64,000 nucleotides of DNA from an uncultured Chryseobacterium sp. (GTDB taxonomy: Bacteria; Bacteroidota; Bacteroidia; Flavobacteriales; Weeksellaceae), in NCBI GenBank assembly GCA_913778085.1, contig CAJYXJ010000014.1, positions 186,001-250,000 on the forward strand, given 5' to 3'. The notes below the pieces were generated by a model. That model worked only from the letters and a program-made list of their open reading frames with translations. It was not told where the DNA came from and searched no databases. This document shows, in pieces, positions 4,511 through 35,190 of this stretch. The first letter of the stretch is position 1, and each line of letters opens with the position of its first letter. The position numbers were made by a program, and so were the translations under genes.

Positions 4511-6496
4511 TTAGTGCTCTTTCATTTTTCCGGTTTTAAATCTTTCACTGGCAGTCTGGTAATAGGAGATGGTTTCTTTTACCAGATCATCATTTTTGTA
4601 ATTAACTTCCGATAAACCCTGTTCTTTTCCGGAAACCGTAAATTGTTTTACCCGCTTCCGGTCATCAATCTGAGTAAAGAGATTGCCTTTAAGCATGCCT
4701 AAAGTTCTGTAGTTCCCGATGAATGCCCTTTGCTCCCGCGGCTCGGTCAAGTTGATATCCCTGCCATACAGACTGGTGGTATAGCTCCATTTCAGATATC
4801 CGAATAAGGTCGGCATTAGGTCAATCTGTGAGGTCAGACTGGCAATGGTCTTAGGTTTTTCTCCACTGTTGTAAATGATGGCAGGAATATGGTGTCTCGC
4901 GATATTAATTTCCCATTTCCCGGCACTGCTGGCACAGTGGTCTGCCACGATCAGAAAAACCGTATTTTTAAACCATTCTTTCTGTTTTGCATTGGCGATG
5001 AACTTCCCCAAAGCATAGTCGGTATACTTTACAGCTGCATTTCGATCTCCTTGTGGAAGATCAATCTTTCCTTCAGGAAAAGTATAAGGTTTGTGGTTGG
5101 AGGTAGTCATGATAAACTGGAAAAAGGGTCTGTTCTCCCTGCTGCTTTTGTCGGCATACTTTAAAGACTGCCTGTAGAGATCTTCATCTGAGATTCCCCA
5201 GGCGTTCTCGAAGCCCACCTCATTATCCGGAATAGCAAATCTCTTAGTTTTAATATCGTCAGACAACGGATTTCCACGGTTCCGGTCTACGATATCAAAT
5301 CCCTGTCCGCCAAAAAAATTGTTCATATTATCGAAATATCCATCTCCTCCATAGATAAAATAAGGATGATATTTCTTTTCTCTCAGAACGGTAGCAATAG
5401 AAAACAAATTACCATTATCCGGTCTTCTTACGATACTGTTGCCTGGTGTTGGCGGTATGCATAAAGTAAGGGCTTCCATTCCTCTTACCGTCCTGGTACC
5501 CGTCGCATACAGGTTGGTAAAAAATATGCTTTCCCGGGACAACCTGTCATAATTCGGAGTAAGGTTTTGCGTATTGCCAAATACAGAAAGGAAATCAGCA
5601 CTGAAGCTTTCAATGGCGATCAGGATGATATTGGGTTTGTTTTTGGCGGATCCCCGGGTAAATCTTGAAAGGTCGGTCGGATCAGGCGAACGATATATCT
5701 GATTCTTCTGTAACAGATTTTGTTTTACCAATGCAAAGGCTTCTGTATCGGGAAGTTTCGGATAAAAGGTGTTATAATCCAATTCATTTGATCTGAAGGC
5801 AGAAATAAAAGAAAAGGCTCCGTTCTTTCCAAGTTCATTAATCACCAGGTTATTGCTGAATTCAGCCTGCTTGTTCTTTAATAATATGCCGAGAAGTATA
5901 GTGATGATACCAATCGGAATAAAGTAAAACATTCTCTTGCTAAAAGAAATTTTACCGGAAAAAGTATTTTGAAAGACCTTTAATTTTCCAAAAAGGAAAA
6001 ATGTAAATGCAACCAGTCCTGCAAGCAGGATTATAACCAAGGGTAACGGATAAGACTGATTAATATTTTCTACCACCTCATAGGTGTAAATAAGGTAATC
6101 AACAGCAATAAAATTAAACCTTACCCCAAATTCAACCCAAAAAGGAATTTCAGCCAAAAGACTGAAGTACATCAGGATGAAGAATAGGAAAAAATAAAAA
6201 TACGTAACGAACTTATCAAACCATAAGCCTATGAACCTCCGTGGAACCAGAAATAAATACAGTCCATAGAAAAACAGGTAAAGAAGTCCTGTTAAAAGAT
6301 CAAAAAGAAAACCGGTGAAAAATGCCCTTGCAATATACAAGGGGTTCGGATCGGTATCGTTGGAAGATAGGACCAGAAATATGATCCTGATAACAAGACA
6401 TAAGGAGAGATAGAGCGTTAGAGCAGTAAAAAAAGCCGAAAACCTGCCATTAGTGATTCGTTTAAAAAATTTACCGGGCTGTGTCTGTACTACCAT
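4511..6496 (-). CDS. LTA synthase-family sulfatase-fold transferase
   Basis: The 661-residue product has about five membrane segments in residues 20-205 followed by an extracytoplasmic alkaline-phosphatase-superfamily domain. Expected metal and catalytic positions are visible: Glu296 in IAIESFSADF, the nucleophile candidate Thr336 in GTRTVRG, His468 in TSNHKPY, and Asp519-His520 in IVADH. Family members move phosphoglycerol or phosphoethanolamine from phospholipid to a glycan or lipid A. In a Gram-negative cell a role in decorating lipid A or glycans is the natural reading (inference). A tandem 11-base repeat lies 37 bases upstream of its ATG and is shared with the outer-membrane protein gene at 11.6 kb, so the adjacent two-component system probably controls it. 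Confidence 0.85.
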   Translation of the reverse strand: MVVQTQPGKFFKRITNGRFSAFFTALTLYLSLCLVIRIIFLVLSSNDTDPNPLYIARAFFTGFLFDLLTGLLYLFFYGLYLFLVPRRFIGLWFDKFVTYFYFFLFFILMYFSLLAEIPFWVEFGVRFNFIAVDYLIYTYEVVENINQSYPLPLVIILLAGLVAFTFFLFGKLKVFQNTFSGKISFSKRMFYFIPIGIITILLGILLKNKQAEFSNNLVINELGKNGAFSFISAFRSNELDYNTFYPKLPDTEAFALVKQNLLQKNQIYRSPDPTDLSRFTRGSAKNKPNIILIAIESFSADFLSVFGNTQNLTPNYDRLSRESIFFTNLYATGTRTVRGMEALTLCIPPTPGNSIVRRPDNGNLFSIATVLREKKYHPYFIYGGDGYFDNMNNFFGGQGFDIVDRNRGNPLSDDIKTKRFAIPDNEVGFENAWGISDEDLYRQSLKYADKSSRENRPFFQFIMTTSNHKPYTFPEGKIDLPQGDRNAAVKYTDYALGKFIANAKQKEWFKNTVFLIVADHCASSAGKWEINIARHHIPAIIYNSGEKPKTIASLTSQIDLMPTLFGYLKWSYTTSLYGRDINLTEPREQRAFIGNYRTLGMLKGNLFTQIDDRKRVKQFTVSGKEQGLSEVNYKNDDLVKETISYYQTASERFKTGKMKEH

Positions 6497-17145: not shown

Positions 17146-18789
17146 CTATTTTCTATTAGTTCTTCTGCTTGCCATTTTTTTCCATATACTCCTTAAAGTT
17201 TTTAATTCATCCTCTTCAAAACCGTGATATCTTATTAAAAGTTCTTCATCTACCATATTGAGAGCATCATCTATTTTTCGTTCGCGGATTAAGGAATCTA
17301 GTTTTAAAAAATCAATATTTATATCTCCAACTATAGGAATTTTTATTTCCTGAATCTCTGTGGGTTCAAATGTCAGAACGCCTCCACCATAACTTCTTCC
17401 AGTAATTTCTGAAAAGGCAAATGTAAGTGAATTCAAAAATGATGCAGTCACAATATTACTGTCTATATTTTCCTTAAACTTTACTCGGTGTATTGTATCT
17501 GTTGAAGAAGCTCCTGTTCTATTCATAATAATCTTCGGATAGTCTCCAACTTGTCGTAACGCAAATGCATCCGGAACCCAAAGTGAAGGAGTAATATACC
17601 ATCGTTTCCTTATCCTAGTTTTATATCCAGTATGAAAACCCTGTTCTTCACCATATTTTATATACTCCTGACACACTTTTGGAAGCACTTCGAAATCCTC
17701 ATTAGGAGGCATGAATAGATATATTGAATTTTGTGCTTCCGAATTAAATAAAAAGTCATCTTCTGAAAATGTTATTCCTTTAAGCTGATTAGATCTGCTA
17801 ACAACTGGAATAGTAAATTCTTTTAGTCGCCACTCATTTACCTGTTTTTCATTCAACATGAAAAATTCATTCCTTCCAGTAACTAAACCAACTTCGACTT
17901 TCATTATATCACTACAAGAAATAATTCTTTTGTCGTTTTTTAATCGCTTTAATAAATTGATTTCATCCTCATTAAGGAAATATTTAGTCCATTTTTCAGT
18001 ACTATGATCTACCGGTTTAACCTTAGAGCCATTTATTTCTTCAAAATTCAAGCTATCTAAGTCCTTTATATTCTCACATTCGATTACTCTTATTCCTTTT
18101 CCATGATCTACTTTTTTTTCACATAAAAGCAGAACAACTTCTTGCTGAATATCTTGAAATACTAATTTTTTAAATGTTACAATTGTTATTCTTTGAAAAA
18201 ACTTTGAAAGAAACACTCTAGTTTCAGCTGCATACTTAACCTGAAATAATTCAGCAGGAATCACCATGGCCATCTTACCATTTTCTTTTAACAGTGAAGC
18301 TGATACAACGAGAAAAGGCACCCAAATATTTGTTAGTTTGTTTGGATTTAATCCTAAGTCTTGCATCATTTCAATAGCAAGCGCCCTATGTTCTTCAGGA
18401 AAGTTCTGATATCTTATAAAGGGTGGATTGCCAATAACAACATCATATTTTTTGGAATTACTATTTTTTATATAACAGAAAAAATCACTATTTACAATTG
18501 TATCTGAGTTTAAACCTAATTTTGCAGCCCGCTGCTTTGCCTTCATAGATTCGTTCTCAATTAGTTCAATACCTTTAATTCTTCCTTTGAGGCTTTCGCC
18601 TTCAATACCTAATTCCTTGAAACGGAGAATAGCGGATTCTACAAAATTACCATCACCGCAACTTGGCTCCAATATACTTTTTGTATCGACATTTATACTC
18701 CAGCGACACAAAAATTCAGCAATGGCTTTTGGAGTATAATATCCCCCTCTTAACTTCTGATCGATTATATTTTCTTTAACTTCTTGCAT
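17146..18789 (-). CDS. N6-adenine DNA methyltransferase of an Eco57I-like system
   Basis: The 547-residue product has SAM-binding motif I (EPSCGDGNF, residues 41-49) and catalytic motif IV NPPF (121-124), the gamma-class N6-adenine signature. A C-terminal target-recognition region of about 250 residues follows. Length and partner fit M.Eco57I (about 544 residues), the stand-alone methylase that accompanies the fused type IIG enzyme. Its start overlaps the stop of the 1027-residue gene by one base. It should protect the host from the fused enzyme by methylating one or both strands of the site. Confidence 0.85.
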   Translation of the reverse strand: MQEVKENIIDQKLRGGYYTPKAIAEFLCRWSINVDTKSILEPSCGDGNFVESAILRFKELGIEGESLKGRIKGIELIENESMKAKQRAAKLGLNSDTIVNSDFFCYIKNSNSKKYDVVIGNPPFIRYQNFPEEHRALAIEMMQDLGLNPNKLTNIWVPFLVVSASLLKENGKMAMVIPAELFQVKYAAETRVFLSKFFQRITIVTFKKLVFQDIQQEVVLLLCEKKVDHGKGIRVIECENIKDLDSLNFEEINGSKVKPVDHSTEKWTKYFLNEDEINLLKRLKNDKRIISCSDIMKVEVGLVTGRNEFFMLNEKQVNEWRLKEFTIPVVSRSNQLKGITFSEDDFLFNSEAQNSIYLFMPPNEDFEVLPKVCQEYIKYGEEQGFHTGYKTRIRKRWYITPSLWVPDAFALRQVGDYPKIIMNRTGASSTDTIHRVKFKENIDSNIVTASFLNSLTFAFSEITGRSYGGGVLTFEPTEIQEIKIPIVGDINIDFLKLDSLIRERKIDDALNMVDEELLIRYHGFEEDELKTLRSIWKKMASRRTNRK

Positions 18790-21700
18790 TAATCTTCTAT
18801 TGATAGTTCAGTTTTAAACATTTCATCATTGATAACAACATTATAATCATCATCACTTATTTGGTACAGTGCATTAACTGCATTTATAAGATACTTCTGA
18901 AGAGTATCTATTTTTCTTTTTAAAATTGTTCTTATAGGTCCATAGGAACCATTTAAATATTCTTTTTTTGTAGTTAATAATTCATCTACAGTTTTTATAA
19001 TCAAATTATATAGATCGACGTCAACTTTTTCTTTCCAATCTATCACTCGTATAGGGATATTTTCAATAAATTGTTTACCATGGGAGTAATAAGCGCCTCT
19101 AAATTCACTTGCTCCGGATTTTACCATATTTTCAAAAAGTGGATGAGATAATATGGCCAAGAAGTAATTTAAGGAGTAATGAGATCTATTTAGTAAAGCA
19201 TAATATGGCCCATTCCCTCCACCAGTAAATTGTATATCATTTTGATCCAATGCATAGGGAGCTGATGTTGCTAAAACTGACCATATCAGTTTAGGAGTAT
19301 TATGAAATCGCGTAAGACTTTGAGAGCGACCAAATTGAAACCATTTAACCTTACTTTCATCACCTTTTTTTGCTGCGAATTCATAATGGTCACTAATACT
19401 TTTATTATCAACTTTTCGCTGTAATAATTTTTCTTTGTGGAATAATAAATATTCATAAGTTAACGGAAATTGATTCTTTAACTTTTCTTCAGTAAAAAGT
19501 GTTGCTTTTCCATTAGTAATTTCATATGGAAAAATAATCTGGGCATTTGGAGCAATTGAATCGAATGCACTAAATGATAATTTGTAAATTGCTGGCAAAC
19601 ATATATCTTTTTCCACTTCCCATATTTTTCCGTTTTTTGAAAAAATATAGGAACTACTATTTGATTGGTTTGGTTCAAATATATAAACCTTATCATCGCT
19701 CGTCTGTAATCCTACACTGATTTCTGCAATTTGCTTTAAAGAAATTGTATTTCCTCTACTTATTCCATCAAATATTTCTTTTGTTTTAGGTGCTAGAAAT
19801 ATCCAAGGATCTGAATTGTAATCAGTTGTGTTATATTCTATAAATTCCTGGTTAGCTTCAAGTTCTTGGGATGATATTTTTTTTATGCGGTTGAAAGTAA
19901 AAGTGTTTTTTTTATTTTTTTGGAGAATTAGAATTGCTGTATATGTTGAGCGTTCAGGAAATACCTGAATAATACCAAAATGTATAATTTTTGATAATTG
20001 ACTATTTGTTGTAATGTAATCTCTTAATGCCTGACCACCCTTTATAATGAAAAACTTATGAGGAATTATATATCCTAAGAGCCCATTAGGATTTAATAGA
20101 CCTATTGCCCTTTGAATAAATACATAATACTTATCAATCGCATCTTTTGAAGCTACAGCATATCCAGAAATAGCCGATTGATAATATTTAACTTCTTCCG
20201 GCGCATATTTTACGAGGTTTTGAATACGTACATATGGTGGATTACCAATTATAGCATCAAACCCTTTTGTTTTTGTCAAAAATCGAAATTCTGTTTCCCA
20301 CTCAAAAGGTTTTAAATTAAACAAAAGTTTATTATTTAATATTGCTTCTGGTAAAAATTCGAAAAACTTATTATCCACCAACGAATTCCCACATTTGATG
20401 TTACCTTTTAGATTAGGTAAGACCTTTTCGGAATTATGGCTAATGAAACTTTCAACAGAAGCGGAATTCTCTCCCTCTAAAAGTTTTAGTAATAGGCTAA
20501 ATTCTGATACTTCAACCGCATAAGGATTAATATCGACTCCAAATAGGTTTTGTTCTAAAATGTGTCTTTTTGTTTTTAATGTAAGACTGATATTAAATTC
20601 ATTTACATTTTGTACTAACTGCCTATCCAGAATCTTTTCCTGAATGATTTGCTGTAGAATTCTTTCTGACAAAAAATCATACGCAGATAGCAAAAAAGTC
20701 CCAGAACCACAACATATATCCGCAACTTTAATTTTAGTCAACTCATCGTAACTTTTTTTAAATGTCAATGGAAAAAGAGTATCTTTTACAATTTGATCAA
20801 CAATAATTTTAGGCGTTGGTACAACACCTTTTGATGCTGAAACTTCGGGTTCTTCTAAAATTACTAGCTGTTGTTCATCAGTAAGTACAATACGGCTTCC
20901 TAAAAAGCGTTCATAAATCTGGCTTAAAATAGATGGATCAACAACAGAAAAATCATACGGACTAAGCGGATAATATAATTCGCTGAATATTTCAATTAAC
21001 ACTTCAGAATCTAAATCAATACGAAGTGTTAAATTGTCATCAATGAAGTCAAACAAGCCAGAATTAAATTTTTTGTCTGATTTGCTAAACAACTGCTTTA
21101 ATTCCGAATAACTTTTGATATTTCTTAATGTCTCGAATTTCTCTATACTTCTATCTTCACAAATTCGGAGAAATATAATTCTATTAAGTAACCTCTGAAT
21201 TAAGAAATTTATGTCCTCAATATTTAGGTGAGAATTAGCACTAATAGCAGATTCTGCTAAACGTTTTCGCCATTTTTCAATTTGTTTAAGAAAGTAATCA
21301 TCAAAAGTTTGACCTTTTCTTTCATACACTGAATATAGATCATCTAACAATCCCGAATTAGCAGAATCATAAGACATTAGTTGCGCTAATTCTTCAAAAG
21401 CATTTTCATATTCGTCATGATTGAAAATTTTAATACGTGCTACTGACTCATTATCTAAATTATCTGGTTTAAACCGACAGTCATAGATTATGATATTTTC
21501 AAAATTAGTTAGTACTGAAATACCGAGATTAGCGTTCCAACCATACCTTCTTGTCTGAAATGCTGATTTAGCTGATTTTAATATATTGACGGAAGGTTTC
21601 TTTACTTCAACGAATAGTTTTCTTGTACCATTAATACGCAAAGTATAGTCTGGGCTTTTCTTAGTATTCTCATCTTCAATTTCAATATATTCTTCTTGAA

Positions 21701-21872
21701 TTACATCTCTCAAAAAATGTGTTTTACCCTTCTCATTATCAACATCCCATCCCAGACATTTAAGTAAAGGATCGATAAAGTCATTACGCAATTGAGTTTC
21801 ATTATAAATTGGCTCAAGATAACTAGCTCTTTCTGCGCTATATTTTTGTACAAGTTCAGAAATGTTCATCAT
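18789..21872 (-). CDS. type IIG restriction endonuclease-methyltransferase (Eco57I-like)
   Basis: The 1027-residue product joins three parts. The N-terminal nuclease has a PD-(D/E)xK pattern (Asp75 in SPDYTL, Glu89 and Lys91 in FVEVKKP). A helical linker follows. The gamma-class N6-adenine methylase has motif I DICCGSGTF (385-393) and motif IV NPPY (544-547), then a TaqI-like specificity domain. This is the layout of R.Eco57I-type enzymes (about 1000 residues), which cut a set distance from an asymmetric site and need SAM. It lies between an XRE regulator (4-base overlap upstream) and a second methylase (1-base overlap), forming one translationally coupled operon. The recognition sequence cannot be read from the protein. 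Confidence 0.87.
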   Translation of the reverse strand: MMNISELVQKYSAERASYLEPIYNETQLRNDFIDPLLKCLGWDVDNEKGKTHFLRDVIQEEYIEIEDENTKKSPDYTLRINGTRKLFVEVKKPSVNILKSAKSAFQTRRYGWNANLGISVLTNFENIIIYDCRFKPDNLDNESVARIKIFNHDEYENAFEELAQLMSYDSANSGLLDDLYSVYERKGQTFDDYFLKQIEKWRKRLAESAISANSHLNIEDINFLIQRLLNRIIFLRICEDRSIEKFETLRNIKSYSELKQLFSKSDKKFNSGLFDFIDDNLTLRIDLDSEVLIEIFSELYYPLSPYDFSVVDPSILSQIYERFLGSRIVLTDEQQLVILEEPEVSASKGVVPTPKIIVDQIVKDTLFPLTFKKSYDELTKIKVADICCGSGTFLLSAYDFLSERILQQIIQEKILDRQLVQNVNEFNISLTLKTKRHILEQNLFGVDINPYAVEVSEFSLLLKLLEGENSASVESFISHNSEKVLPNLKGNIKCGNSLVDNKFFEFLPEAILNNKLLFNLKPFEWETEFRFLTKTKGFDAIIGNPPYVRIQNLVKYAPEEVKYYQSAISGYAVASKDAIDKYYVFIQRAIGLLNPNGLLGYIIPHKFFIIKGGQALRDYITTNSQLSKIIHFGIIQVFPERSTYTAILILQKNKKNTFTFNRIKKISSQELEANQEFIEYNTTDYNSDPWIFLAPKTKEIFDGISRGNTISLKQIAEISVGLQTSDDKVYIFEPNQSNSSSYIFSKNGKIWEVEKDICLPAIYKLSFSAFDSIAPNAQIIFPYEITNGKATLFTEEKLKNQFPLTYEYLLFHKEKLLQRKVDNKSISDHYEFAAKKGDESKVKWFQFGRSQSLTRFHNTPKLIWSVLATSAPYALDQNDIQFTGGGNGPYYALLNRSHYSLNYFLAILSHPLFENMVKSGASEFRGAYYSHGKQFIENIPIRVIDWKEKVDVDLYNLIIKTVDELLTTKKEYLNGSYGPIRTILKRKIDTLQKYLINAVNALYQISDDDYNVVINDEMFKTELSIED

Positions 21873-22813: not shown

Positions 22814-24895
22814 CTATTCATCAAGTGGTACAATCGTCCAGCCAGCATTTTTAAATTTTTCAATATCGTTGCGGACATTATCTCTTCTTATTGCAAAACA
22901 CAGAAGATCTGTTGGTCGCGAAAAGCCTACATACATCATTTTTAACGTCTCATTGGATCTAACCTTATTTAAATGAGAAAAATTTTGTTCTTGAAAGAAT
23001 AAAGGATTACATCCTACAAAATCGGCTTTATTTTTTTTACCTTTAATGAATACAGTCAACTTAGCAAGCTCTGATGTGTGGTAATCTGTCTCAACATACA
23101 TTGTTGCACAATGTGTCTGTCCTTTTGCTGAATGAACAGATCCTAACTTAACAATAATACCTTTATCTTCAATTTGTTCAGGTTGTAATATTTCAGCAAA
23201 GTTGAAATTATATTCCCGGTTAATAAAACCTTCTGAATTCTGAATTTTAAAGTCCTCAATCAAATCGGTCAGCTGATTTCTAATATAATTCACATAGTCA
23301 TCAAATACCATCTGATAATTCTCTTCGACAATAATTGAATAACACCAGTTAAACAGTCGACCCTTAAATATATCATAGTATGCATCCCCTTTACTCTTAA
23401 CTAAATCAACAAAAATAGATTTACTGTACTTTTTAGAAGAACTCCCAGGAATATTAACCCCTTCAATTCGTAAAATTCTGATGATTCCATTTAAAAGAGA
23501 TTTCCGAACAGCTTCAAAAGTTGATTTTCTGCGGTCAAATAAAAATAAATATTTCCTTAAACAGTCAAAATCCTCTCTTTTTTGCTTTATTTCTCTAGAA
23601 TATTCTGGAAAAAGTTTTCTTAAATGCCATTTTTCAGAACCCTCTTCTTTGTCTGTTGTCCAAGCAATGATATGAAAACCTTTTTCGATATTAGTACTAT
23701 TTTCGTTAAGACCAAAATGTTTAATTAGTTCAATATACCTCTCTTTAAGCATCTTAGCGTGAGTTTCATCCTTAAAAATTAAAAGATGGGGTGGAATTGA
23801 TTCTCGATTAGAAATACCAACAACTCGATATTCACTGCTTCGGCTCAATGCGAAACCATCAACTAGCTCACCAATTATTGGTGTTAACCGATGCGAATTA
23901 TTTAAACTAAGATCTGCTTGAAATCTTTCAGGGTCAATCTGATTTCGAGTCCTCCAGACATTTTCACTATGCAACGATGAACTTGAATAAATTGCCTGAT
24001 TCTGATCCCCGATTCTTTGAATAATTGTAGTAGAACCTTCAGTAAAGAAAATACTTTCAATCAGCTGTACCTGATCAAAATCAAGATCCTGCATTTCATC
24101 AATAAAGACATATCTGAACCGGTTTTGTAAAATTTCTTTAAAATCATTTGCACAGGGAAGATTTAAGTAACTTTTTGAGATATCAAAGCTATCTTTGAAC
24201 GAAAGTATACCTTGAGAGAGAAGATTTAACTTCCACCTTTCCAATTCAAGATAATATTCTCTATTTACACCAGTATATGTCAATTTAGAAGTATTACCAA
24301 TTTTAACTTTTCTTCCTTCAAGATCATATGAGCAATTTTTCAGAAACTCTAATATATTTCTTTCCTTTTCATTAGATGAACCTTCAAAATCTCTGTTAAC
24401 CAAACCAAAAAGTTTATTTTTTAAATTAGCTGGATTCTGTCCCTTTTCAGAGTATTGAAGGCTTTTAAAAAATCTCTCAACTTCATATAAGTACATCTGA
24501 TCGTCATTCTTATGAATATAACTACCATATAGGTCAAAACAAGCTTGATTGGCGACAAATTTATTTGTAAAACTCTGAATGGTTCCGACAAAATTTGGAT
24601 ATACAAAAAGCTGCGGGCACAGAGGTTTTAATACTTTTTCAATCTCCTCGATGGCATGATTTGTATGACAGAGAATTAGTACTGCCCGATTCGTGTCCAA
24701 GGGCATTTGTTTAGCCATACAATACAATTTTGCCAGTAAGGCAGTAGTCTTTCCACTCCCAGGTACTGCCAATAAGTCAACTGTATTCATGTTGGCAATA
24801 AATGCTCTTCTTTCAGAGTCGAAAACTTCTCCACCTATCAAAATTTCTTCGGCAGCTCTGAGATGTAACGGATCAATTCTCATAATCATGTACAT
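22814..24895 (-). CDS. UvrD/Rep-like SF1 helicase, GajB-like partner
   Basis: The 693-residue product has SF1A helicase motifs: Walker A VPGSGKTT (44-51), motif II FIDEMQDL, motif III-like GDQNQAIYSS and a C-terminal motif VI-like MYVGFSRPTDLLCFAIRR. Its start overlaps the end of the OLD-family gene by 23 bases, so the two are translated together. OLD nuclease plus UvrD-like helicase is the class 2 OLD layout and the basis of Gabija phage defence, where GajB is thought to sense nucleotides or DNA ends and activate GajA. At 693 residues it is longer than the reference GajB (about 490), so it may be a diverged branch. Confidence 0.8.
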   Translation of the reverse strand: MYMIMRIDPLHLRAAEEILIGGEVFDSERRAFIANMNTVDLLAVPGSGKTTALLAKLYCMAKQMPLDTNRAVLILCHTNHAIEEIEKVLKPLCPQLFVYPNFVGTIQSFTNKFVANQACFDLYGSYIHKNDDQMYLYEVERFFKSLQYSEKGQNPANLKNKLFGLVNRDFEGSSNEKERNILEFLKNCSYDLEGRKVKIGNTSKLTYTGVNREYYLELERWKLNLLSQGILSFKDSFDISKSYLNLPCANDFKEILQNRFRYVFIDEMQDLDFDQVQLIESIFFTEGSTTIIQRIGDQNQAIYSSSSLHSENVWRTRNQIDPERFQADLSLNNSHRLTPIIGELVDGFALSRSSEYRVVGISNRESIPPHLLIFKDETHAKMLKERYIELIKHFGLNENSTNIEKGFHIIAWTTDKEEGSEKWHLRKLFPEYSREIKQKREDFDCLRKYLFLFDRRKSTFEAVRKSLLNGIIRILRIEGVNIPGSSSKKYSKSIFVDLVKSKGDAYYDIFKGRLFNWCYSIIVEENYQMVFDDYVNYIRNQLTDLIEDFKIQNSEGFINREYNFNFAEILQPEQIEDKGIIVKLGSVHSAKGQTHCATMYVETDYHTSELAKLTVFIKGKKNKADFVGCNPLFFQEQNFSHLNKVRSNETLKMMYVGFSRPTDLLCFAIRRDNVRNDIEKFKNAGWTIVPLDE

Positions 24896-26690
24896 ACTTA
24901 ATAGCGTTCACCAAATAAGAAAGAAATGGATCTTCATTTATCTGATTCGCCGTTATTGTATTATTCTCGGACAACAGTTCAGCAAAGACATTCATAACCG
25001 CGACCTTATCTATGGGGGATGTTCCTGATTTCTTTGACAGTTTTTTAATAAACTTTGCTTCAAATGAAGCTTTAAAAGTACCATTAACCTTTTGGAACTC
25101 TTCTGTTTTACTATGTACTTGTAATATTGCTTCCTTAAATATGTTAGATAAACAAGATCGATACAGACACCATTCCAGTGTCCATTGTATTGCAATATTT
25201 AATTTTACATCTGTAGACTTGAGTTCGCGTTTTAAAATATTAATATTACATAGCTTATTTTTAAATGTTTTATCTTCTCTAAAAAAAGATATAAACCGGC
25301 CAAACTCATCAGGTCTATTATCTAGATCCGTGATAATTGCAATTGGGACATTCATTCTACGACTATCTGCTCGCAAAAATATTTTTGCAAAATGCAGGTA
25401 TGCTGTTGAAGCCACGTTGATAACAGAAATTTCTTTTTTAGCTAGATCCATTCCTAACTTACCAGCCAACGTAGGAAGAAGTATTTCTTCAGACCAACCC
25501 TCAACTATTATATTTCCCTTTGAAAAGAAAAGGTTACTCTTGGTAACATCCAGGAAACGCTCCAGATATTTATAGTCCTTTCGCTCCAGTTTAGTATTTC
25601 CTTCACCTAGCGGAAACACATCATTACCCTTGCAAATGATAATTTCTTTTAAATCTGCCTGTGATGTAATATTTGAGCTATGACTGGTAAGGATATATTG
25701 AATTTCTACTTCCTTTTTCAATCGATTTATGATCTTTAGCTGTGCCTGTGGATGAAGATGTGCTTCAAGTTCTTCGATCATGCATAGCTTTAAACCATTC
25801 CAATCAGATTTCCGCAGATGGAGTAATTCTGCAGCCATAAACAGCCGATTCATTGTACCCAAGCCTAAATTTTTTGCTCCAATTACCCCTAGAGACATTT
25901 TCTCAAGGATATTGGTAATCTTAGTAGGTCCAAAATCAAATACAGATTCTGAGCTTTCATTTATAAAAGAGCCGATAAAGTCATCTACAACCTTCTTTAT
26001 ATTAGTATGATATCCCTGATCTTCATCTTTAAATTTAACCCGGATTTGCTCACTTGTATCTTCAAATAGCTCCTCAAATTCATGAAGTCCATTTTCTTTT
26101 TTCAGTTTAAATTCCTTATGCTCCTTTAAAATCTGCGACAATCTTGAATTTTTTTTAGCAGCAAGTTCATTATCAGCATCCCGTAAAGCCTTAAGGTAAG
26201 TACATTTGAGATATTCTTTAGCTTCTGCTGTCAACGTATTTCCGACACCATCCATGCCTGCCTTGATGTCGGAAGGGATTATCCGACCATTCAAGTATTG
26301 AACCTGATAGATCAGATGCAACTTCGGCCTACGAAATATCTCTTCCCTTCCACCGACGTGCATAACCTCATTTTGCATTCCGCACCATTCTGTAAAATTA
26401 GCTGCTTCCACATTGGTAATTCCGGAAAACTCAAGTTCAATTCTTAAAATGGGTGAAATTTCATTGCCATTACTGAAAAAATCGCTTTCCTCGACTTTAA
26501 TCCATTCATATGCATGAGTTTTTAAAACAATCTTAATGGCATCGATGATAGCAGATTTTCCTGAATCATTTTCTCCAATAAGAATATTCATTCCTTTATT
26601 AAAAGGTACTGTCAAATTTGGTAAATTAAGGTCAAAATTTGGACTTCCGTACTTTCTGAAATTCCAAAGTTTCAAAGAAGATATATACAT
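24873..26690 (-). CDS. OLD-family ATPase-TOPRIM nuclease, GajA-like
   Basis: The 605-residue product has an ABC-type ATPase half with Walker A GENDSGKS (39-46), Walker B in MIEELEAHLHPQ (about 304-314) and the H-loop LTSHSSN (334-340). A TOPRIM nuclease half follows with Glu397 in IIVEGWSEE and the DxD pair Asp455/Asp457 in IITDLDNR. These are the hallmarks of OLD nucleases. With the overlapping UvrD-like helicase gene it forms a Gabija-like pair. GajA is a sequence-specific DNA nickase held off by nucleotides. The gene is first in its operon and reads away from the STAND-nuclease gene across a 322-base gap. Confidence 0.83.
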   Translation of the reverse strand: MYISSLKLWNFRKYGSPNFDLNLPNLTVPFNKGMNILIGENDSGKSAIIDAIKIVLKTHAYEWIKVEESDFFSNGNEISPILRIELEFSGITNVEAANFTEWCGMQNEVMHVGGREEIFRRPKLHLIYQVQYLNGRIIPSDIKAGMDGVGNTLTAEAKEYLKCTYLKALRDADNELAAKKNSRLSQILKEHKEFKLKKENGLHEFEELFEDTSEQIRVKFKDEDQGYHTNIKKVVDDFIGSFINESSESVFDFGPTKITNILEKMSLGVIGAKNLGLGTMNRLFMAAELLHLRKSDWNGLKLCMIEELEAHLHPQAQLKIINRLKKEVEIQYILTSHSSNITSQADLKEIIICKGNDVFPLGEGNTKLERKDYKYLERFLDVTKSNLFFSKGNIIVEGWSEEILLPTLAGKLGMDLAKKEISVINVASTAYLHFAKIFLRADSRRMNVPIAIITDLDNRPDEFGRFISFFREDKTFKNKLCNINILKRELKSTDVKLNIAIQWTLEWCLYRSCLSNIFKEAILQVHSKTEEFQKVNGTFKASFEAKFIKKLSKKSGTSPIDKVAVMNVFAELLSENNTITANQINEDPFLSYLVNAIKYVHDYEN

Positions 26691-27012: not shown

Positions 27013-30000
27013 ATGAGAAATGCTTACAGCGGTTATACCTATCAAAAACATATAACTCAGTTGTTATTGTCCATAATGGATGTAGAGAGGAAAATTTCAA
27101 AAATTGAAATCGAAGCAAAAGTTGATGATAACTTCGATGATTTATTAGTATCTATTAATAATGAAGAATATAGTTTTCAGATTAAGGATTTTGAAAATAT
27201 AACGTTAGATCAACTTGTTGTTGAAGATGAAAATTTAATAATTAAAGGTAAAGCTCATAAACTTTCAAAGAGTAAAAACATTGTTTTTTTTAAGCATATC
27301 GATATTGTTCCCAATGACAAAGTATTAGAATTTAATTGTTTGAAAAAAGGCAATTTGTATTTCATATCAATGAGCCGGACTGATGCAGATCTCTTTATTG
27401 ATGATCTATATAGTGGGAACTTAAATAGGAAATATGAGATTGAAAATTATTTAAGTGAAACACTTGACAACAGGATATGGCTGATTGAAAGGTCTGATCT
27501 TCCCAGCTTAAAAACTTATACCACGGACCTACACCAAGAATCGGTAAAAATTAATCATACTCTTGTTGAATTTGAAAAGTTATTATTGATAGAAGGTAAA
27601 CCCGGAGTTGGGAAAAGTCATTTTGTAAATTCACTTGTTGAAGAATATCCTGTAAATATATTATACCGATTTTGGGTAGGAAATCAGGAATCCGATTATC
27701 TGGAGAGATTAAAATTTCAAAACTTTGTACAAGATTTAAACGTAAAACTATTTCACGATCTAAAAAACAGGGATATTACTGATTTACTTAAGGAGATTGA
27801 AAGAAAAAAAATAACTCTCATCATTGATGGTTTAGATCATGTCGAAAATTATAATAGCAGTGAACTGTCTAGATTTATAAAATTCATAGAAGAGTTAAAA
27901 GAGTACTGCAAAGTTATCGTATTATCAAGACCATTGGTAGTTAAGTTAGATTGGAAAAAACATATTTTTGAAAACTGGAATAAAAAACAAACTGAGTTTG
28001 TCTTAGAGGAATTGTTTCATATTACAAATTACAATATCCAGAAAGAAGTCTTTTACATGACGCAGGGCTATCCTATTCTTGTAAAATACGTTGCAGAATT
28101 TTATAAATTAAATAAGAAGCTGCCGGAAACAGGACAACTTCAAGATATTGACAGTTTTTATGAAGGCATCATCAAACATGAAAAAGGAAAATATTCTCTT
28201 TCTATTTTTTTATGCACGAATTCGTATTTAATGTATTCAGAACTAGATCTCTTTTTAGGGGAAGCTAAATATTATGTTGAAGAGTTCATAGATGAACATC
28301 CTTATCTATTTGACACCAAGCTGAATAGAATTGCTTTGTTTCACGATAGTTTCAACACTTATCTGCGTAACAGGTCGACTAATTACAAAATATTAAATGA
28401 AAACGCGACCAAACTGGTATATAATTCAATAATGAGCTTAGATAGACGATTTCTTTCAAGATTTTCTCTATTTAATCTATCCAATCAACAGAGAAAAGAA
28501 ATAGCTAGAAAATTTTGTAACATAGCGATTTTTGAAGAAATAATAAAAAGCAGTATTGATATTGAGGCAATCCGGAATTTTTACTTTGATTTAAGAGATT
28601 GCATGTCCAACTATAAATTTGATGATTTTGAAATCTCACATTATTATGAACTATCACTTATTATAAATCTTATTTATAGAGATCACATTTCAACGCCTGA
28701 TGGCTTTCTTTATACTTATACGCAAGCGCTATTATTTAATGGATATACTGAGGAGGATATAACCAGTTCAGGATACTTATTTGGAATGTTATTTTATGTA
28801 AAAACTAGTAATCCAATTTTGCTTTATAATAAGGTGTCAAATGATAATTACTCTACCGACTATTTTCATATGAGATTGGAAGGAGATGTTAATAAAGAAG
28901 AATATTTTTTTATCAGGAATAAAAAAGTCATTACGAAAACAAAAATAATTAAAGCTCTAAAAGATAGACGGTATTTTAGTAATTATTTGCCATGGATTAT
29001 GGAAAATCTTTTTCTTCATCAAAAGAGATATCAAGGGTTTGAAGAATTAAGTGATTCAGTAAATCTCTTTCTAGAAGGCTTTGAGTCAAAAGGTGCCATA
29101 AAGTTAGCTCAATTTTTAGAAAAACATCCTAATTCATACCATCATGCAAATTGGTATTTAAATGACGTAAAAAAGAATTTAATTGCTGCAGGATGTGAGG
29201 TTAGTAATATAGAAGAGAACAAATACAATCATCTGACTTTAGCAGGGCTTATTTTAAAAAATAAAGAAGTTGGAAGCTTTAATTTAAGTAATAAAATTCA
29301 TGAATATATAAGATTAACCTTACATCGAAAGAAAAAAATCGATATATCAAGTATCTCATTGTTATGGACCAAATATTATAACAGAAAAGATTATACATTA
29401 TATGGTTTACCAAAAGCATTGAAGGCACTTCATAAAAATAATTTTTTGACACTGGATGAATGCATATTTACGATTACAAAAATCCAGGATATTTCTGAGA
29501 AGGGATACCGGTATTTATTGGGAGATTTTTTTGAAATGTACGACCCTTGTGAAATAATGCCCTACGTTGAAAAAGTTAATTTAAATCATCTTTCCTTGCA
29601 GTGGTTTCTACTTCCATTAGAATTCATCAATTCTTTTTCGGATAAATTATATAACTACGCAATAAGGCAATTACTACAAGATAACAGAAACAATTCGGTG
29701 GAAATTAATGAGATAAGAAATGGATTACTTTCGAGTCGCCTGCATGATATTGAACTACAATTCAGCATCACAAAAACAAAAGTAAGAGTAGAAAAATCAG
29801 ATATTATTATTAAAGAACTAAAAAAATCTAAAATTCTTTTAGATATATATGTCGACAGGGAAGGTAGATACAGCACCACAATCGAAGAAAGGCTTAATTC
29901 AGGCTATATATATCATGGTGATCTTAATTATATAAAAGAAAAAAAAATAGACCTTTTAGATGCAGCCAAGCTTGCTGATAGTGAGTCATCTTCTTTGGTT

Positions 30001-30243
30001 TTTACAGAATTATTCGAGATGTACGAAAAAAAAGAGGTAACTGATAATTTTAAAGAAATATTGTATAATGCGATAATTGGAAAAACATGGCGAGGAGAGT
30101 ATAGTTTATTGCTTTATTATACTGCGGGACATATTTTGTACATAATTGAAAAGTATCGAAATAAAAAAGAATTTGAAGAAGCCGTAAAAAGTTTTAAAAA
30201 ATTCACTCAATTATCATTAATTGAAATCAACTGGTCTAAGTAA
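27013..30243 (+). CDS. Cap4/DUF4297-like nuclease fused to a STAND-type NTPase (Avs-like defence candidate)
   Basis: This 1076-residue cytoplasmic protein has three parts. Residues 1-100 resemble the DUF4297/Cap4 nuclease start (AYSGYTYQKHITQLLL) with a PD-(D/E)xK-like pattern: Glu34, Asp42-Asp43 and QIK 56-58. Residues 185-400 are a P-loop NTPase with Walker A GKPGVGKS (195-202), Walker B LIIDGLDH (269-276) and a Sensor-like VIVLSRP string, as in STAND/NACHT proteins. Residues 400-1076 are helical without recognisable short repeats and could bind a trigger. Effector plus STAND plus helical sensor is the Avs layout, in which binding a phage protein switches on a nuclease. It is shorter than known Avs proteins and was placed here by domain reading alone. 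Confidence 0.7.
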   Translation: MRNAYSGYTYQKHITQLLLSIMDVERKISKIEIEAKVDDNFDDLLVSINNEEYSFQIKDFENITLDQLVVEDENLIIKGKAHKLSKSKNIVFFKHIDIVPNDKVLEFNCLKKGNLYFISMSRTDADLFIDDLYSGNLNRKYEIENYLSETLDNRIWLIERSDLPSLKTYTTDLHQESVKINHTLVEFEKLLLIEGKPGVGKSHFVNSLVEEYPVNILYRFWVGNQESDYLERLKFQNFVQDLNVKLFHDLKNRDITDLLKEIERKKITLIIDGLDHVENYNSSELSRFIKFIEELKEYCKVIVLSRPLVVKLDWKKHIFENWNKKQTEFVLEELFHITNYNIQKEVFYMTQGYPILVKYVAEFYKLNKKLPETGQLQDIDSFYEGIIKHEKGKYSLSIFLCTNSYLMYSELDLFLGEAKYYVEEFIDEHPYLFDTKLNRIALFHDSFNTYLRNRSTNYKILNENATKLVYNSIMSLDRRFLSRFSLFNLSNQQRKEIARKFCNIAIFEEIIKSSIDIEAIRNFYFDLRDCMSNYKFDDFEISHYYELSLIINLIYRDHISTPDGFLYTYTQALLFNGYTEEDITSSGYLFGMLFYVKTSNPILLYNKVSNDNYSTDYFHMRLEGDVNKEEYFFIRNKKVITKTKIIKALKDRRYFSNYLPWIMENLFLHQKRYQGFEELSDSVNLFLEGFESKGAIKLAQFLEKHPNSYHHANWYLNDVKKNLIAAGCEVSNIEENKYNHLTLAGLILKNKEVGSFNLSNKIHEYIRLTLHRKKKIDISSISLLWTKYYNRKDYTLYGLPKALKALHKNNFLTLDECIFTITKIQDISEKGYRYLLGDFFEMYDPCEIMPYVEKVNLNHLSLQWFLLPLEFINSFSDKLYNYAIRQLLQDNRNNSVEINEIRNGLLSSRLHDIELQFSITKTKVRVEKSDIIIKELKKSKILLDIYVDREGRYSTTIEERLNSGYIYHGDLNYIKEKKIDLLDAAKLADSESSSLVFTELFEMYEKKEVTDNFKEILYNAIIGKTWRGEYSLLLYYTAGHILYIIEKYRNKKEFEEAVKSFKKFTQLSLIEINWSK

Positions 30244-30596: not shown

Positions 30597-31976
30597 CTAT
30601 TTATTTTTAGCTTTCTGTTCATTAAGATACCGTTGATAAAGCCCTAACTCATTCAGGGCAATTCTAAATACAATCCCATAAATAGGTAAATCTGTAAATT
30701 TTGCAATATTATCGCATTCAGGATCATAATCAGGAAATAGATATTTTACTTTTTGATGTTTAGGTCTTGTGGCTATTCTGTTAGTGTTAAGACTTTCAAA
30801 AATCTCGTAAGTAGCTATTATTAAGGCTGTCGCCTCACCAAAAGACGTAAGTTTGTCTATATATCTAAATTTTTTATCTTTAAGAATCACAGGAGGTGTA
30901 AATATGTTTACTATCCTAGAAAGTTCTAATAAGAATCGTTGTTTAAATCTAAAATTGTCAGTAGTGTCAAAAGGAAAAAATGGTCTGATAAAAAAGAAAA
31001 AGTCATCATCTTTAAGTTTAGATGCAATATAGAATTTATCGTAATAATATTTTAATGCCTGTGATATATGAACACGATCTTGTTGATACGTTTCTTCAGC
31101 AAATAATTTTATTGATTCTAGAACGTTTTTGTATTGTGGTGCCTCTGAAAAATTAGAAAGCAGATATACTTCTGGATTTTCTGTAAATTGATCATAGTCT
31201 CCATCTCTAAGCTTCTCTAATATCGTAATTAAGGTTGAAGGAGGGTTTGCTGAATTTAGAGCGAAGTATACAAGAACAATTTTCTCAAAAGATGTCGATC
31301 TTTTTATTCCGTAGAATGAAAGTAATTCGTCAAAAAATAAGTAGGGATAAAACGGTCTTTTACTGAGTAAGCTTGGGTCTATGTCTGAAAGATCATGTTC
31401 GTAAAGAAATTCGTCAATTGCAGAACTTAAAAATTCATCCATAGCACCGAATGTTAATCTAAAGTTATGAATATTTAAAAGTCCAACAATGTTAATTTTG
31501 ATAAATATTCGACAACCATTAATACTCTTACCCTCTATTTTTAAGTCAACAGGAACAATTTCTTGTTCTATAGAAACTATTTCAAATTTATTATTTAAAG
31601 CATTTTTTGTCTCATTAACGACTTCATAATTTATATCATCTTCGTTAAGTATTTTAATAGTATTATTCCAGTACTTAACTAAATCCTCACAACTTTTATA
31701 AGTGTTTTTACTAATAGGAAAGGCATTAAGTCCCTCGTTCATTGTGAGAATGGTTAAAGTTCGAAAACGGTCACAAAAGTTTAAGCTAAACTGGCGAATC
31801 CCGGGTAGTGTTGCAATGTTTGTCAGATAGTGATAATATTCATGAATAAATATTGCATGATCTTGACCAATTTCAAGATCTGTTAAAAATGTTGTAAGAT
31901 TTTCCGTATTAAAGCCATCGAGTTTAATATAAAATCTATCTGGATAATACTTGATTTCACCGATATCAATACTCAT
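30597..31976 (-). CDS. uncharacterised protein with a zincin HExxH motif
   Basis: I do not recognise a named family. The 459-residue product has no signal peptide or membrane segment. It has a clear HExxH metal-binding motif in a helix, His45-Glu46-Tyr-Tyr-His49 (FIHEYYHYLTNI), and possible third ligands Glu181 or Glu189 (GAMDEFLSSAIDEF), as in gluzincins. The remaining 270 residues are rich in aromatic residues and predicted helical. It stands alone on the minus strand between a resolvase and a decayed resolvase copy, inside the defence island. A cytoplasmic metalloprotease acting as effector or activator is a reasonable hypothesis, not a result. Confidence 0.6.
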   Translation of the reverse strand: MSIDIGEIKYYPDRFYIKLDGFNTENLTTFLTDLEIGQDHAIFIHEYYHYLTNIATLPGIRQFSLNFCDRFRTLTILTMNEGLNAFPISKNTYKSCEDLVKYWNNTIKILNEDDINYEVVNETKNALNNKFEIVSIEQEIVPVDLKIEGKSINGCRIFIKINIVGLLNIHNFRLTFGAMDEFLSSAIDEFLYEHDLSDIDPSLLSKRPFYPYLFFDELLSFYGIKRSTSFEKIVLVYFALNSANPPSTLITILEKLRDGDYDQFTENPEVYLLSNFSEAPQYKNVLESIKLFAEETYQQDRVHISQALKYYYDKFYIASKLKDDDFFFFIRPFFPFDTTDNFRFKQRFLLELSRIVNIFTPPVILKDKKFRYIDKLTSFGEATALIIATYEIFESLNTNRIATRPKHQKVKYLFPDYDPECDNIAKFTDLPIYGIVFRIALNELGLYQRYLNEQKAKNK

Positions 31977-32814: not shown

Positions 32815-33299
32815 AATTTGTTACATTAAACTCATATTTTGTAAATTTATGGAACTTTGTTTACTGATACGCCATTTTGAGAAAATATATCCAAAAAATG
32901 AAGTGATTAGATCCGACCACTTTAAAAATCTCACAAAACCACAGTTTGCAATTCATTTTTAATTTCGCTTAAGTGCAGTAAATCTTCAATAAAAGTGTTT
33001 GAAGACACGCTCGTCTTGGTCACAAGACGGGATTATATGATTTTTTAAAATCCAAAATTCTTTATCAATAATTAATTTTTTTTTAAATATGATATATAGC
33101 CGATAAATTCTAATTAGAGATTATTCTATACAAACATGACTAACTATTTGTACTATAAGCTATAATTAAGCAATTTATCTTTATAAAAAAGACACTTTAA
33201 GACAATGAATACGACGAGCCGGCATACTTCATTATTTTTTATTGTAGCGCTATAATTTGATTTGAAGTTTGAGATTATCTCATTCATGATAAATTAAAT
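32815..33299. other. non-coding region between the two recombinase genes
   Basis: This 485-base AT-rich gap lies between the divergent resolvase and large recombinase operons. It holds a perfect 7-base hairpin (CGTCTTG gtca CAAGACG, about 33024-33041). Bases just upstream of the resolvase start (about 32820-32900) would be the expected place for its res-type binding sites, but no symmetric sites could be defined by eye. Confidence 0.4.
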
Positions 33300-33530: not shown

Positions 33531-33579
33531 AATTCACTACATTAGCCTGACAACCAAAATGTTAATAAAACTAACCACT

Positions 33580-35190
33580 ATGCTAATAGCAGATTTATAC
33601 ATTAGAGTTTCTACTGATGAACAAGCGGATAAAGGCTATTCACAAAGAGACCAGCATGAAAGATTGGAAAGATATTGTCTTCAAAACCAAATTACAATTG
33701 GACATGTAATCTTTGAAGATCATTCAGCTAAGAACTTCAATCGCCCAGAGTGGACTAAATATATCAATTATATCAAAAAAAGAAATCTGAAATCCAATTT
33801 AGTATTATTTACTAAATGGGATCGTTTTAGTAGAAACGCAGGTGATGCCTATCAAATGATAAAATTATTGTTAAGTAATAATATTTCACCTCAAGCTATA
33901 GAACAACCTTTGGATATGTCTATACCGGAAAACAAAATGATGCTTGCCATCTATTTAGCTGCACCGGAGGTAGAAAATGATCGAAGAGCACTAAATACAT
34001 TCTATGGGATGAGAAGAGCTCAGAAAGAAGGAAGACTGATGGGCACCGCGTCCTATGGTTATATTAATAAATGTGCTGAAGATGGAAGAAAATATGTGGC
34101 CCTAAAAGAACCTGAGGCTTCAAATATGCGGTGGGCATTTAATGAAATCGCTAAGGGTAAATATGCCATCAACCAGATAAGACTTCAAATGAATAAGATG
34201 GGAGGCGCAAAAATTAGTAGAACTTCTTTTTACAGGGCAATAAGAAATCCAGTTTACATTGGGAAAATATATATTAAAGCATACAAAGACGAGGAGGCCT
34301 GTATTGTTGATGCCAATCATGAAAGTCTGATATCAGAAAGCTTATTTTATAAAGTGCAAAATGTTTTAAGCGGAAAAACTTTGGAGGAAAGACCTCATGG
34401 TAAAATTATCACTGCTAATGAATTTCCACTGAGAGGCTTTTTAAAATGTCCGCGATGTGGAGGACATATTTCAGGGAGCGGATCTAAGGGCAAGAAAAAT
34501 GTTTATTATTACTATCACTGTAATTCTAAATGCGGTTATAGACATAGCTCAGATAAAGTTAATTCTGCATTTGAAAAAGAATTAATAAAATATAACTTCC
34601 ATGAAGGTGTAAATACGTTATTAAAAGAAATAATATTAAACAATTTTAAATATATACAGGAAAATATTGATGGTAAAAAAAAGGAATTGTCCGAACAAAT
34701 TGTTAATTTAACCAATAAGCTATCTAGTGCTAGAGAAAAGTATCTCGAAAACAGATTAGATTTTGAGGATTATCAGATCATTAAAAATGAAAGTAAGAAA
34801 AAAATTGATGAACTTGAAATGGAACTGCAGAATCAAAGGCTATCACGTAAAAATGTAGATATTAAGACGAAGCTTGACCAAGTTTTAAATATTTTGCCAA
34901 ACCTTTCTCAACTGTATATTAAAGGTGATAATGAGACAAAAAATTCTATACTGTGTTCGATTTTGGCCGAAAAACTTGAATTTCAAGAAAATGCTTTTCG
35001 AACACCTAAATTAAATCCCGCACTTACTCAAATAATACTGATTCACAATCAGTTACAAAGTAAAAAAAAAGGAAAGAGCACTTCTAAAAATGCTCTTTCC
35101 CGCAGAGTGACCCCGGAGGGATTCGAACCCCCAACCGTTGGAGCCGAAATCCAATATTCTATCCAGTTGAACTACGGAGCCATTTCATAA
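33580..35190 (+). CDS. large serine recombinase, C terminus fused to antisense tRNA sequence
   Basis: The start at 33580 (MLIADLYIRVSTDEQ) is preferred because it places the catalytic Ser at residue 10 as in the family; a Met 7 codons upstream is possible. The protein has the resolvase domain, a recombinase domain (about 160-270), a zinc ribbon (CPRCGG near residue 293, later CNSKCGY) and a coiled coil (370-440). The usual protein ends near 35060. Here the frame continues through the tRNA terminator and the full antisense of tRNA-Arg to a stop at 35188, adding about 40 foreign residues (VTPEGFEPPTVGAE). This is the integrase expected to have inserted an element beside the tRNA. Confidence 0.88.
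   Translation: MLIADLYIRVSTDEQADKGYSQRDQHERLERYCLQNQITIGHVIFEDHSAKNFNRPEWTKYINYIKKRNLKSNLVLFTKWDRFSRNAGDAYQMIKLLLSNNISPQAIEQPLDMSIPENKMMLAIYLAAPEVENDRRALNTFYGMRRAQKEGRLMGTASYGYINKCAEDGRKYVALKEPEASNMRWAFNEIAKGKYAINQIRLQMNKMGGAKISRTSFYRAIRNPVYIGKIYIKAYKDEEACIVDANHESLISESLFYKVQNVLSGKTLEERPHGKIITANEFPLRGFLKCPRCGGHISGSGSKGKKNVYYYYHCNSKCGYRHSSDKVNSAFEKELIKYNFHEGVNTLLKEIILNNFKYIQENIDGKKKELSEQIVNLTNKLSSAREKYLENRLDFEDYQIIKNESKKKIDELEMELQNQRLSRKNVDIKTKLDQVLNILPNLSQLYIKGDNETKNSILCSILAEKLEFQENAFRTPKLNPALTQIILIHNQLQSKKKGKSTSKNALSRRVTPEGFEPPTVGAEIQYSIQLNYGAIS
35071..35100 (-). terminator. intrinsic terminator of tRNA-Arg
   Basis: GGAAAGAGCA (35071-35080) and TGCTCTTTCC (35091-35100) form a perfect 10-base stem. 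On the minus strand nine T follow. It lies 7 bases behind the tRNA 3' end and is also part of the recombinase reading frame on the plus strand. Confidence 0.88.
35108..35181 (-). tRNA. tRNA-Arg(TCG): tRNA-Arg (anticodon TCG)
   Basis: The 74 bases fold into a full cloverleaf on the minus strand: acceptor GGCTCCG with CGGGGTC, D-arm GTTC/GAAT, anticodon stem TTGGA/TCCAA with loop TTTCGGC (anticodon TCG, reads CGA), and T-arm GGGGG-TTCGAAT-CCCTC. The discriminator is A and CCA is not encoded. The gene marks the right edge of the accessory region, with a large serine recombinase reading into it from its 3' side. Confidence 0.93.

Follow-up and report, generated by a model that had tools for sequence, protein, structure and literature searches.

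A compact Cap4-type nuclease-STAND protein, a probable anti-phage sensor in a Chryseobacterium defence island

Background

The DNA analysed here, hereafter the window, is a stretch of 64,000 nucleotides from an uncultured Chryseobacterium sp. (assembly GCA_913778085.1, contig CAJYXJ010000014.1, positions 186,001 to 250,000). A gene on its forward strand (27013..30243) encodes, in a single frame from an ATG start, a protein of 1076 amino acids (aa) in which a predicted Cap4-type nuclease domain is followed by a STAND switch and a long C-terminal region. We consider that this protein probably acts on its own, as an anti-phage sensor encoded by a single gene and built on the effector-STAND-sensor plan, in which C-terminal sensing would work an ATP switch, the switch would turn on the nuclease and the cell would be arrested or die. 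The nuclease fold, the homology of the switch and the setting of the gene in a defence island support the defence role that an initial annotation, made from the sequence alone, had thought likely. That annotation had also placed the open reading frame (ORF) exactly.

Results

The N-terminal nuclease domain

Residues 1-170 (27013..27522, + strand) are predicted to form a Cap4/DUF4297-type PD-(D/E)XK nuclease domain. The fold is supported by an AlphaFold2 model of residues 1-180 (pLDDT, the per-residue confidence, 77.1; pTM, the predicted template-modelling score, 0.75) and by its Foldseek and VIA matches, among which LmuA and HamA were practically tied with Cap4. The Cap4/DUF4297-like start described in the initial annotation was therefore borne out, as were the positions of AYSGYTYQKHIT, E34, D42/D43 and Q56-I57-K58. 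The limits of the domain were not; it had been confined to residues 1-110 and reaches about residue 170.

The predicted metal-binding and catalytic residues E34, F41-D42-D43 and Q56-x-K58 lie between residues 34 and 58 (27112..27186, +). E34, D42, D43, Q56 and K58 are invariant in eight aligned members of the family, including a prophage homologue with 27% identity, and so form a conserved predicted D...(E/Q)xK active site. Read by eye, QVK stands at the corresponding place in the PF14130 protein of a genus relative, which is itself over the Pfam cut-off. No member of the family reached that cut-off (best 17.9 vs 26.2 bits, among 10 members). Weak PF14130 matches, all in one common register, were found in four of the 10 (E 0.0037-0.044), the window's own sequence being without a match. 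Alignment of the nuclease profile to one PF14130 protein by hhalign covered just 11 columns. A search of PDB sequences with the nuclease profile returned no defence protein (best match ATP synthase subunit d, E 0.029), and a Foldseek search of viral models had no match at E <= 0.001.

The STAND switch

Residues 181-460 (27553..28392, +), the most conserved part of the protein, appear to comprise a P-loop NTPase and a likely helical/winged-helix part containing G352-Y353-P354 and HDS at 444-446. The STAND/NACHT-type Walker boxes reported previously are present as a Walker A motif, GKPGVGKS (residues 195-202; 27595..27618, +), and a Walker B-like motif, IIDGLDH (residues 270-276; 27820..27840, +). 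G195-S202, D272/D275, R306-P307 and G352-Y353-P354 are invariant in the eight aligned members, as are G273 and H276. The Walker boxes, the arginine after strand 4 and the GxP of the winged-helix part, which we take to be marks of the STAND NTPase superfamily, are thus all found.

Three Pfam models scored over their cut-offs, NPHP3_N (29.3 bits; cut-off 24.8), AAA_22 (27.1; 27) and KAP (22.6; 20). NACHT stayed below its cut-off (16.2 vs 26.7 bits in the window protein and up to 23.8 among four relatives), and so did nSTAND3 in the window protein (21.3 vs 27.2 bits). As a marker for placing the protein nSTAND3 was set aside as too unspecific, with matches in 21/21 genomes searched and 14/14 control genomes. 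Searches of PDB sequences with the single protein, the whole-family profile and the NTPase profile found no defence protein, the best NTPase matches being generic P-loop proteins.

Kinship to long Avs-like proteins

The family profile picks up, through the NTPase region alone, four long ORFs in the bacterial family of the window. These STAND proteins of 1,940-2,183 aa (L050:2549-8368, L051:2033-7867, L052:1671-8219 and L053:5992-12504; 1,940, 1,945, 2,183 and 2,171 aa) carry Cap4-like N-terminal motifs when read by eye (GY/GF..Y, DD, and YQIK or FQVK). In that order they score 25.7, 31.0, 19.3 and 17.7 bits, and a Klebsiella plasmid protein 17.2; the best of 1,000 controls, all of them residue-shuffled sequences, reached 7.2 bits. 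The match spans window residues ~179-185 to 455-480. For the switch region the hhalign probability is 97.3% with the first pair of long proteins and 96.5% with the second, and the nuclease parts were not confidently aligned to those of the window family by the same program.

The last two long proteins match the PADLOC Avs1b model (E 7.8e-29 and 2.1e-29) and, in their N-terminal parts, PDDEXK effector models. Neither of the first two matched a PADLOC Avs model, and both may be additional Avs-like proteins not yet described. Because both the profile and hhalign connect the window family to the long proteins, two of which match Avs1b, the switch is probably related to that of Avs-like proteins; homology to the switch of long STAND proteins with Cap4-like N-termini is supported at the level of sequence.

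No PADLOC Avs model matched the window protein at E <= 1 or four relatives at E <= 0.1. The Avs1b model itself works on controls, since it recovers the Klebsiella plasmid protein (4.7e-7) as well as two of the four long proteins. Judged by these models, the protein is outside the catalogued Avs families, with a switch related to theirs. The description as short and Avs-type accordingly holds for length, predicted architecture and switch, and does not extend to the sensor or to formal membership.

The C-terminal region

Residues 461-1076 (28393..30240, +) form a putative sensor region. No convincing match to it was found in Pfam, PADLOC, NCBIfam or PDB sequences, and the absence of an obvious TPR noted earlier is confirmed among Pfam matches at E <= 1. 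The "nearly 680 helical residues" of the initial annotation correspond to a long region beyond the switch of ~616 residues, the helical nature of which comes from a low-confidence model alone. Full-length AlphaFold2 modelling with four sequences (pLDDT 45.2) was too poor to name a C-terminal fold.

This is the least conserved part of the protein. The four ~40% relatives share with the window protein 47-48% identity over residues 1-110, 30-40% over 111-180, 49-54% over 181-320, 52-54% over 321-460, 43-44% over 461-640, 29-39% over 641-860 and 24-34% over 861-1070; the linker at 111-180 is likewise poorly conserved. For the prophage homologue the same seven segments give 35, 19, 43, 36, 18, 22 and 22%. 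Among closer pairs the nonsynonymous divergence (dN) is highest in 861-1070, with the exception of L011-L017, where residues 641-860 have the highest value. A switch that stays conserved while the end of the protein diverges quickly is the pattern expected of a sensor, and the position and divergence of residues 461-1076 suggest that role for them.

The same region could be read in another way, as part of a DNA-sensing restriction enzyme comparable to Hachiman and Lamassu in its mode of sensing. DNA ends or replication structures would then be what the C-terminus and NTPase detect, and foreign DNA would be cut directly by the nuclease, without killing the cell. The near tie of LmuA and HamA with Cap4 among nuclease folds speaks for this, as does the presence of DNA-acting systems among the neighbouring genes. 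We regard it as unlikely, however, because the switch homology points to Avs-like STAND proteins, the C-terminus diverges like a protein sensor and no separate DNA-binding domain is found among the Pfam matches at E <= 1.

Conservation and distribution of the gene

Intact full-length relatives with 66-83% identity occur in four other genomes of the window's genus, more distant ones (39-42%) in other Bacteroidota and one (27%) in a prophage; for this reason the ORF is more than a chance frame. Apart from one interrupted copy, whole ORFs at the examined loci encode 1074-1096 aa, the longest having an early alternative start. The ratio of nonsynonymous to synonymous divergence (dN/dS) is 0.126 for window-L001, 0.130 for window-L005, 0.119 for L001-L005, 0.102 for L011-L017 and 0.189 for the near-identical pair L005-L006; synonymous divergence (dS) is saturated between the window and L007. 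The gene is under purifying selection and its C-terminus is less conserved.

The occurrence of the gene is patchy. It was matched in 7/174 genomes of the genus, namely the window, four with intact copies, one with a copy split by an insertion and one with a short remnant. The other samples overlap with each other. They yielded 2/395 genomes in the order (the window and one relative at 40% identity), 3/395 in the phylum (the window and that relative again, together with a genome holding two fragments), 3/249 in the genus of the 40% relative (all full length) and 3/14 in a third Bacteroidota family (one full length, two partial). A profile search at the family level matched 12/297 genomes, made up of the seven genus genomes, one 25-residue fragment at a contig edge and four matching only in the NTPase region. 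The split copy (L002:3575-9432) is broken by an IS21-like insertion of ~2.6 kb with IstB_IS21 and a Mu-type transposase domain; the gene can therefore be lost.

Six scans of viral contigs found the gene in two places, 66% and 27% identical to the window protein. Plasmid and phage collections gave no match with the window protein as query. The prophage homologue as query gave partial matches only, in two Pseudomonas phages and three Klebsiella plasmids. The one Pseudomonas match inspected, a 218-aa hypothetical protein, was judged to be chance, and the one Klebsiella match inspected is the Avs1b-matching protein above, of 1,842 aa.

STAND proteins include transcription regulators, and the Pfam matches of the switch are to generic P-loop families, so one might suspect a housekeeping NTPase or a STAND regulator whose nuclease-like start has degenerated. 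That reading was already disfavoured and we hold it to be very improbable. The predicted catalytic residues are invariant in eight members down to 27% identity, the occurrence is patchy and the neighbours are defence and mobile genes. A transcription regulator in particular was rejected on finding no helix-turn-helix among the Pfam matches at E <= 1.

The defence island of the window

Both neighbours named in the initial annotation, a divergent Gabija-like pair and a restriction-modification system in the same island, proved to be present. GajA (24873..26690, -; PADLOC E 4.6e-208) is divergent from the STAND gene at a distance of 322 bp and is followed by GajB (22814..24895, -; E 4.4e-263). 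Pfam and PADLOC identify a type IIG restriction enzyme-methyltransferase (18789-21872, -) and a methyltransferase (17146-18789, -), which together span 17146..21872. On the other side lies a Ccr-like large serine recombinase (33559..35190, +), the likely source of mobility, with Resolvase, Recombinase and Zn_ribbon_recom over their Pfam cut-offs and the NCBIfam models XisF and CcrB matched below theirs. The island edge is marked by a called tRNA-Arg (tcg; 35107..35181, -). Between 12 and 34 kb all eleven 2-kb steps have a GC content of 28.6-34.0%, against 35.5-44.5% in 19 of the 21 others; the low-GC stretch holds the Gabija pair, the type IIG enzyme, the recombinase, a small resolvase and the STAND gene, and ends near the tRNA-Arg.

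The recombinase ORF runs into the tRNA-Arg on the other strand, its last ~28 codons overlapping it. No exact repeats of 14-24 bases of this tRNA edge occur elsewhere in the window. A Bacteroidota promoter motif gave four matches against 4.9 expected, none near the STAND gene. Adjoining the STAND gene is a 459-aa protein (30597-31976, -) with a metallopeptidase-like HEYYH (HExxH) motif, which matched no Pfam, PADLOC or over-cut-off NCBIfam family and could be another unknown island gene.

Neighbourhoods and mobility of the relatives

Eleven distinct loci were compared (the window, L001, L002, L016, L021, L022, L024, L025, L026, L027 and L030); L023 and L029 repeat two of these, and the comparison did not include the partial copies in G547 and G1109. 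When ORFs of at least 90 aa are considered, the STAND gene, in two pieces in L002, is the sole family common to all eleven. A toxin-antitoxin pair was rejected on the same count, as no partner gene is conserved.

PADLOC was run on the window genes and on 20 neighbour proteins picked by eye at loci other than L030, and 12 of the 20 matched at E <= 1e-5. By PADLOC or close homology 9/11 loci, as a raw count, have other defence genes. Gabija was identified directly by PADLOC in the window, L001 and L026, and in L021 and L022 by 86-90% identity to the pair of L001, which also has a weak JetD-like gene (6.6e-6) and an MksE-like gene. The remainder include a HamB-like helicase (L002), PDC-M65A/B and PDC-S25 (L016), type IIG restriction-modification (L024) and a type II restriction enzyme with two cytosine methylases (L027). 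The defence-island setting is thereby supported. Two SEC-C-type proteins of ~1,255 aa, 44% identical, are found close to the STAND gene at L026:1510-5289 and L025:14782-18549, and that of L026 matches PADLOC Upx.

Mobility is apparent at several loci. L021:3739-13880 and L022:6020-16167 share an element of 10.15 kb at 97.4% identity, in which the only ORFs of at least 90 aa are a Ccr-like recombinase, the STAND gene, GajA and GajB; outside it blastn finds short repeats alone in common. In L022 the start of the element coincides with the 3' end of a tRNA-Arg (5950-6024). A short stretch that looks like a tRNA 3' end is repeated, at 77-88% identity, near several of the islands (32946-33063 of the window, L001:3280-3397 and 17811-17888, L002:1159-1231 and L022:18055-18228), and is perhaps an attachment-site remnant. 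In L030, whose host was judged by eye to be outside Bacteroidota, the homologue comes after tape-measure, tail, holin, endolysin and two serine integrase genes and before response-regulator, kinase and transporter genes, the latter read by eye. This order places it at the integration end of a prophage.

The frequent company of Gabija raises the question of whether the STAND protein is an accessory part of it, in one composite system with GajA and GajB. The pair adjoins the STAND gene in the window, L001, L021 and L022 and is one gene off in L026 (5/11). The GajA proteins of these five belong to three lineages, mutually 28-39% identical, in different orientations, and the 10.15-kb element holds little else. 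The divergent lineages and varied orientations suggest repeated co-location rather than one operon. Against a composite system, the DNA examined contains neither a GajA nor a GajB homologue in 6/11 neighbourhoods, including the prophage copy, and the five Gabija cases count one element twice (L021 and L022). A single GajB model matched 21/174 genus genomes, which is a minimum, since the L001-type GajB escapes it; of those 21 only the window's carries the STAND gene, and in three others the model misses the GajB lineage that lies beside the STAND gene. An accessory role therefore appears quite improbable to us.

Discussion

Proposed function

Our preferred interpretation remains a stand-alone sensor, and an abortive-infection mechanism is proposed for it because of the analogy with Avs proteins and bNACHT25/32; those relatives are the source for oligomerisation, cleavage of DNA, death of the cell and direct sensing of a protein. 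The C-terminal ~616 residues would recognise some product of phage infection, upon which the switch (K201/S202, D272/D275, R306) would exchange ADP for ATP and oligomerise. Oligomerisation would gather the N-terminal Cap4-type domains, which would cut DNA through E34/D43/Q56/K58 and metal, and the infected cell would stop or die prior to phage release.

A more far-reaching and speculative idea, to which we give little weight, is that of a separate compact Cap4-nuclease STAND family whose C-terminal fold and trigger are unlike those of Avs1-5. Such a family would move on serine-recombinase elements of Bacteroidota and on one or more prophages, at least one of them in a distant host. Its repeated coupling with Gabija would then provide a back-up, set off once the partner defence has been blocked.

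A literature search by titles and abstract starts found no description of this family, which is not proof of its absence from print. With this protein the STAND immune sensors would gain a family that is uncharacterised, of modest size and simple to test, whose read-out is a nuclease and whose sensor has no family match in the searches made. Being roughly half as long as Avs proteins, the protein may be easier to express and to solve structurally. Its location at a prophage end suggests that a phage may turn it on rival phages, and the compact element, in which a recombinase, the STAND nuclease and Gabija lie together, shows how defence genes can travel in a small package.

Comparison with known systems

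The nucleases of Cap4 (CBASS), LmuA (Lamassu), HamA (Hachiman) and the HerA-associated DUF4297 proteins are coupled to SAVED, SMC, helicase or HerA partners, whereas that of the window protein is fused to a STAND switch. With Avs (AVAST) antiviral STAND proteins, above all the nuclease-bearing Avs3 (8dgc) and PADLOC Avs1b, the window protein shares an N-terminal PD-(D/E)XK-type nuclease fold, a central STAND switch, a long C-terminal region and a location in defence islands; the switch of the Avs1b-matching proteins is also homologous by profile. PMC12931631 describes the Avs nuclease as killing by cutting phage and host DNA upon sensing packaging proteins. Avs5 (SIR2-STAND) is, in the same paper, also a tripartite STAND sensor with an nSTAND3 region, but its effector is a SIR2 NADase and in the window protein nSTAND3 falls below the cut-off.

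Restriction endonuclease effectors in counter-invader systems with a central STAND NTPase have already been published, as PMC8195603 reports. In function, those bacterial NACHT proteins that begin with a PD-(D/E)XK DNase may be just as near to the window protein. According to PMC12169576, bNACHT25 and bNACHT32 (clade 6) combine such a DNase with a NACHT switch and a non-LRR C-terminus, and the DNase is required for defence and degrades DNA upon infection. By the same description they carry NCH1 C-terminal domains, whereas no C-terminal domain was recognised in the window protein and its NACHT match is below the cut-off; the order of parts, from N-terminal nuclease through switch to C-terminus, is the one predicted for the window protein.
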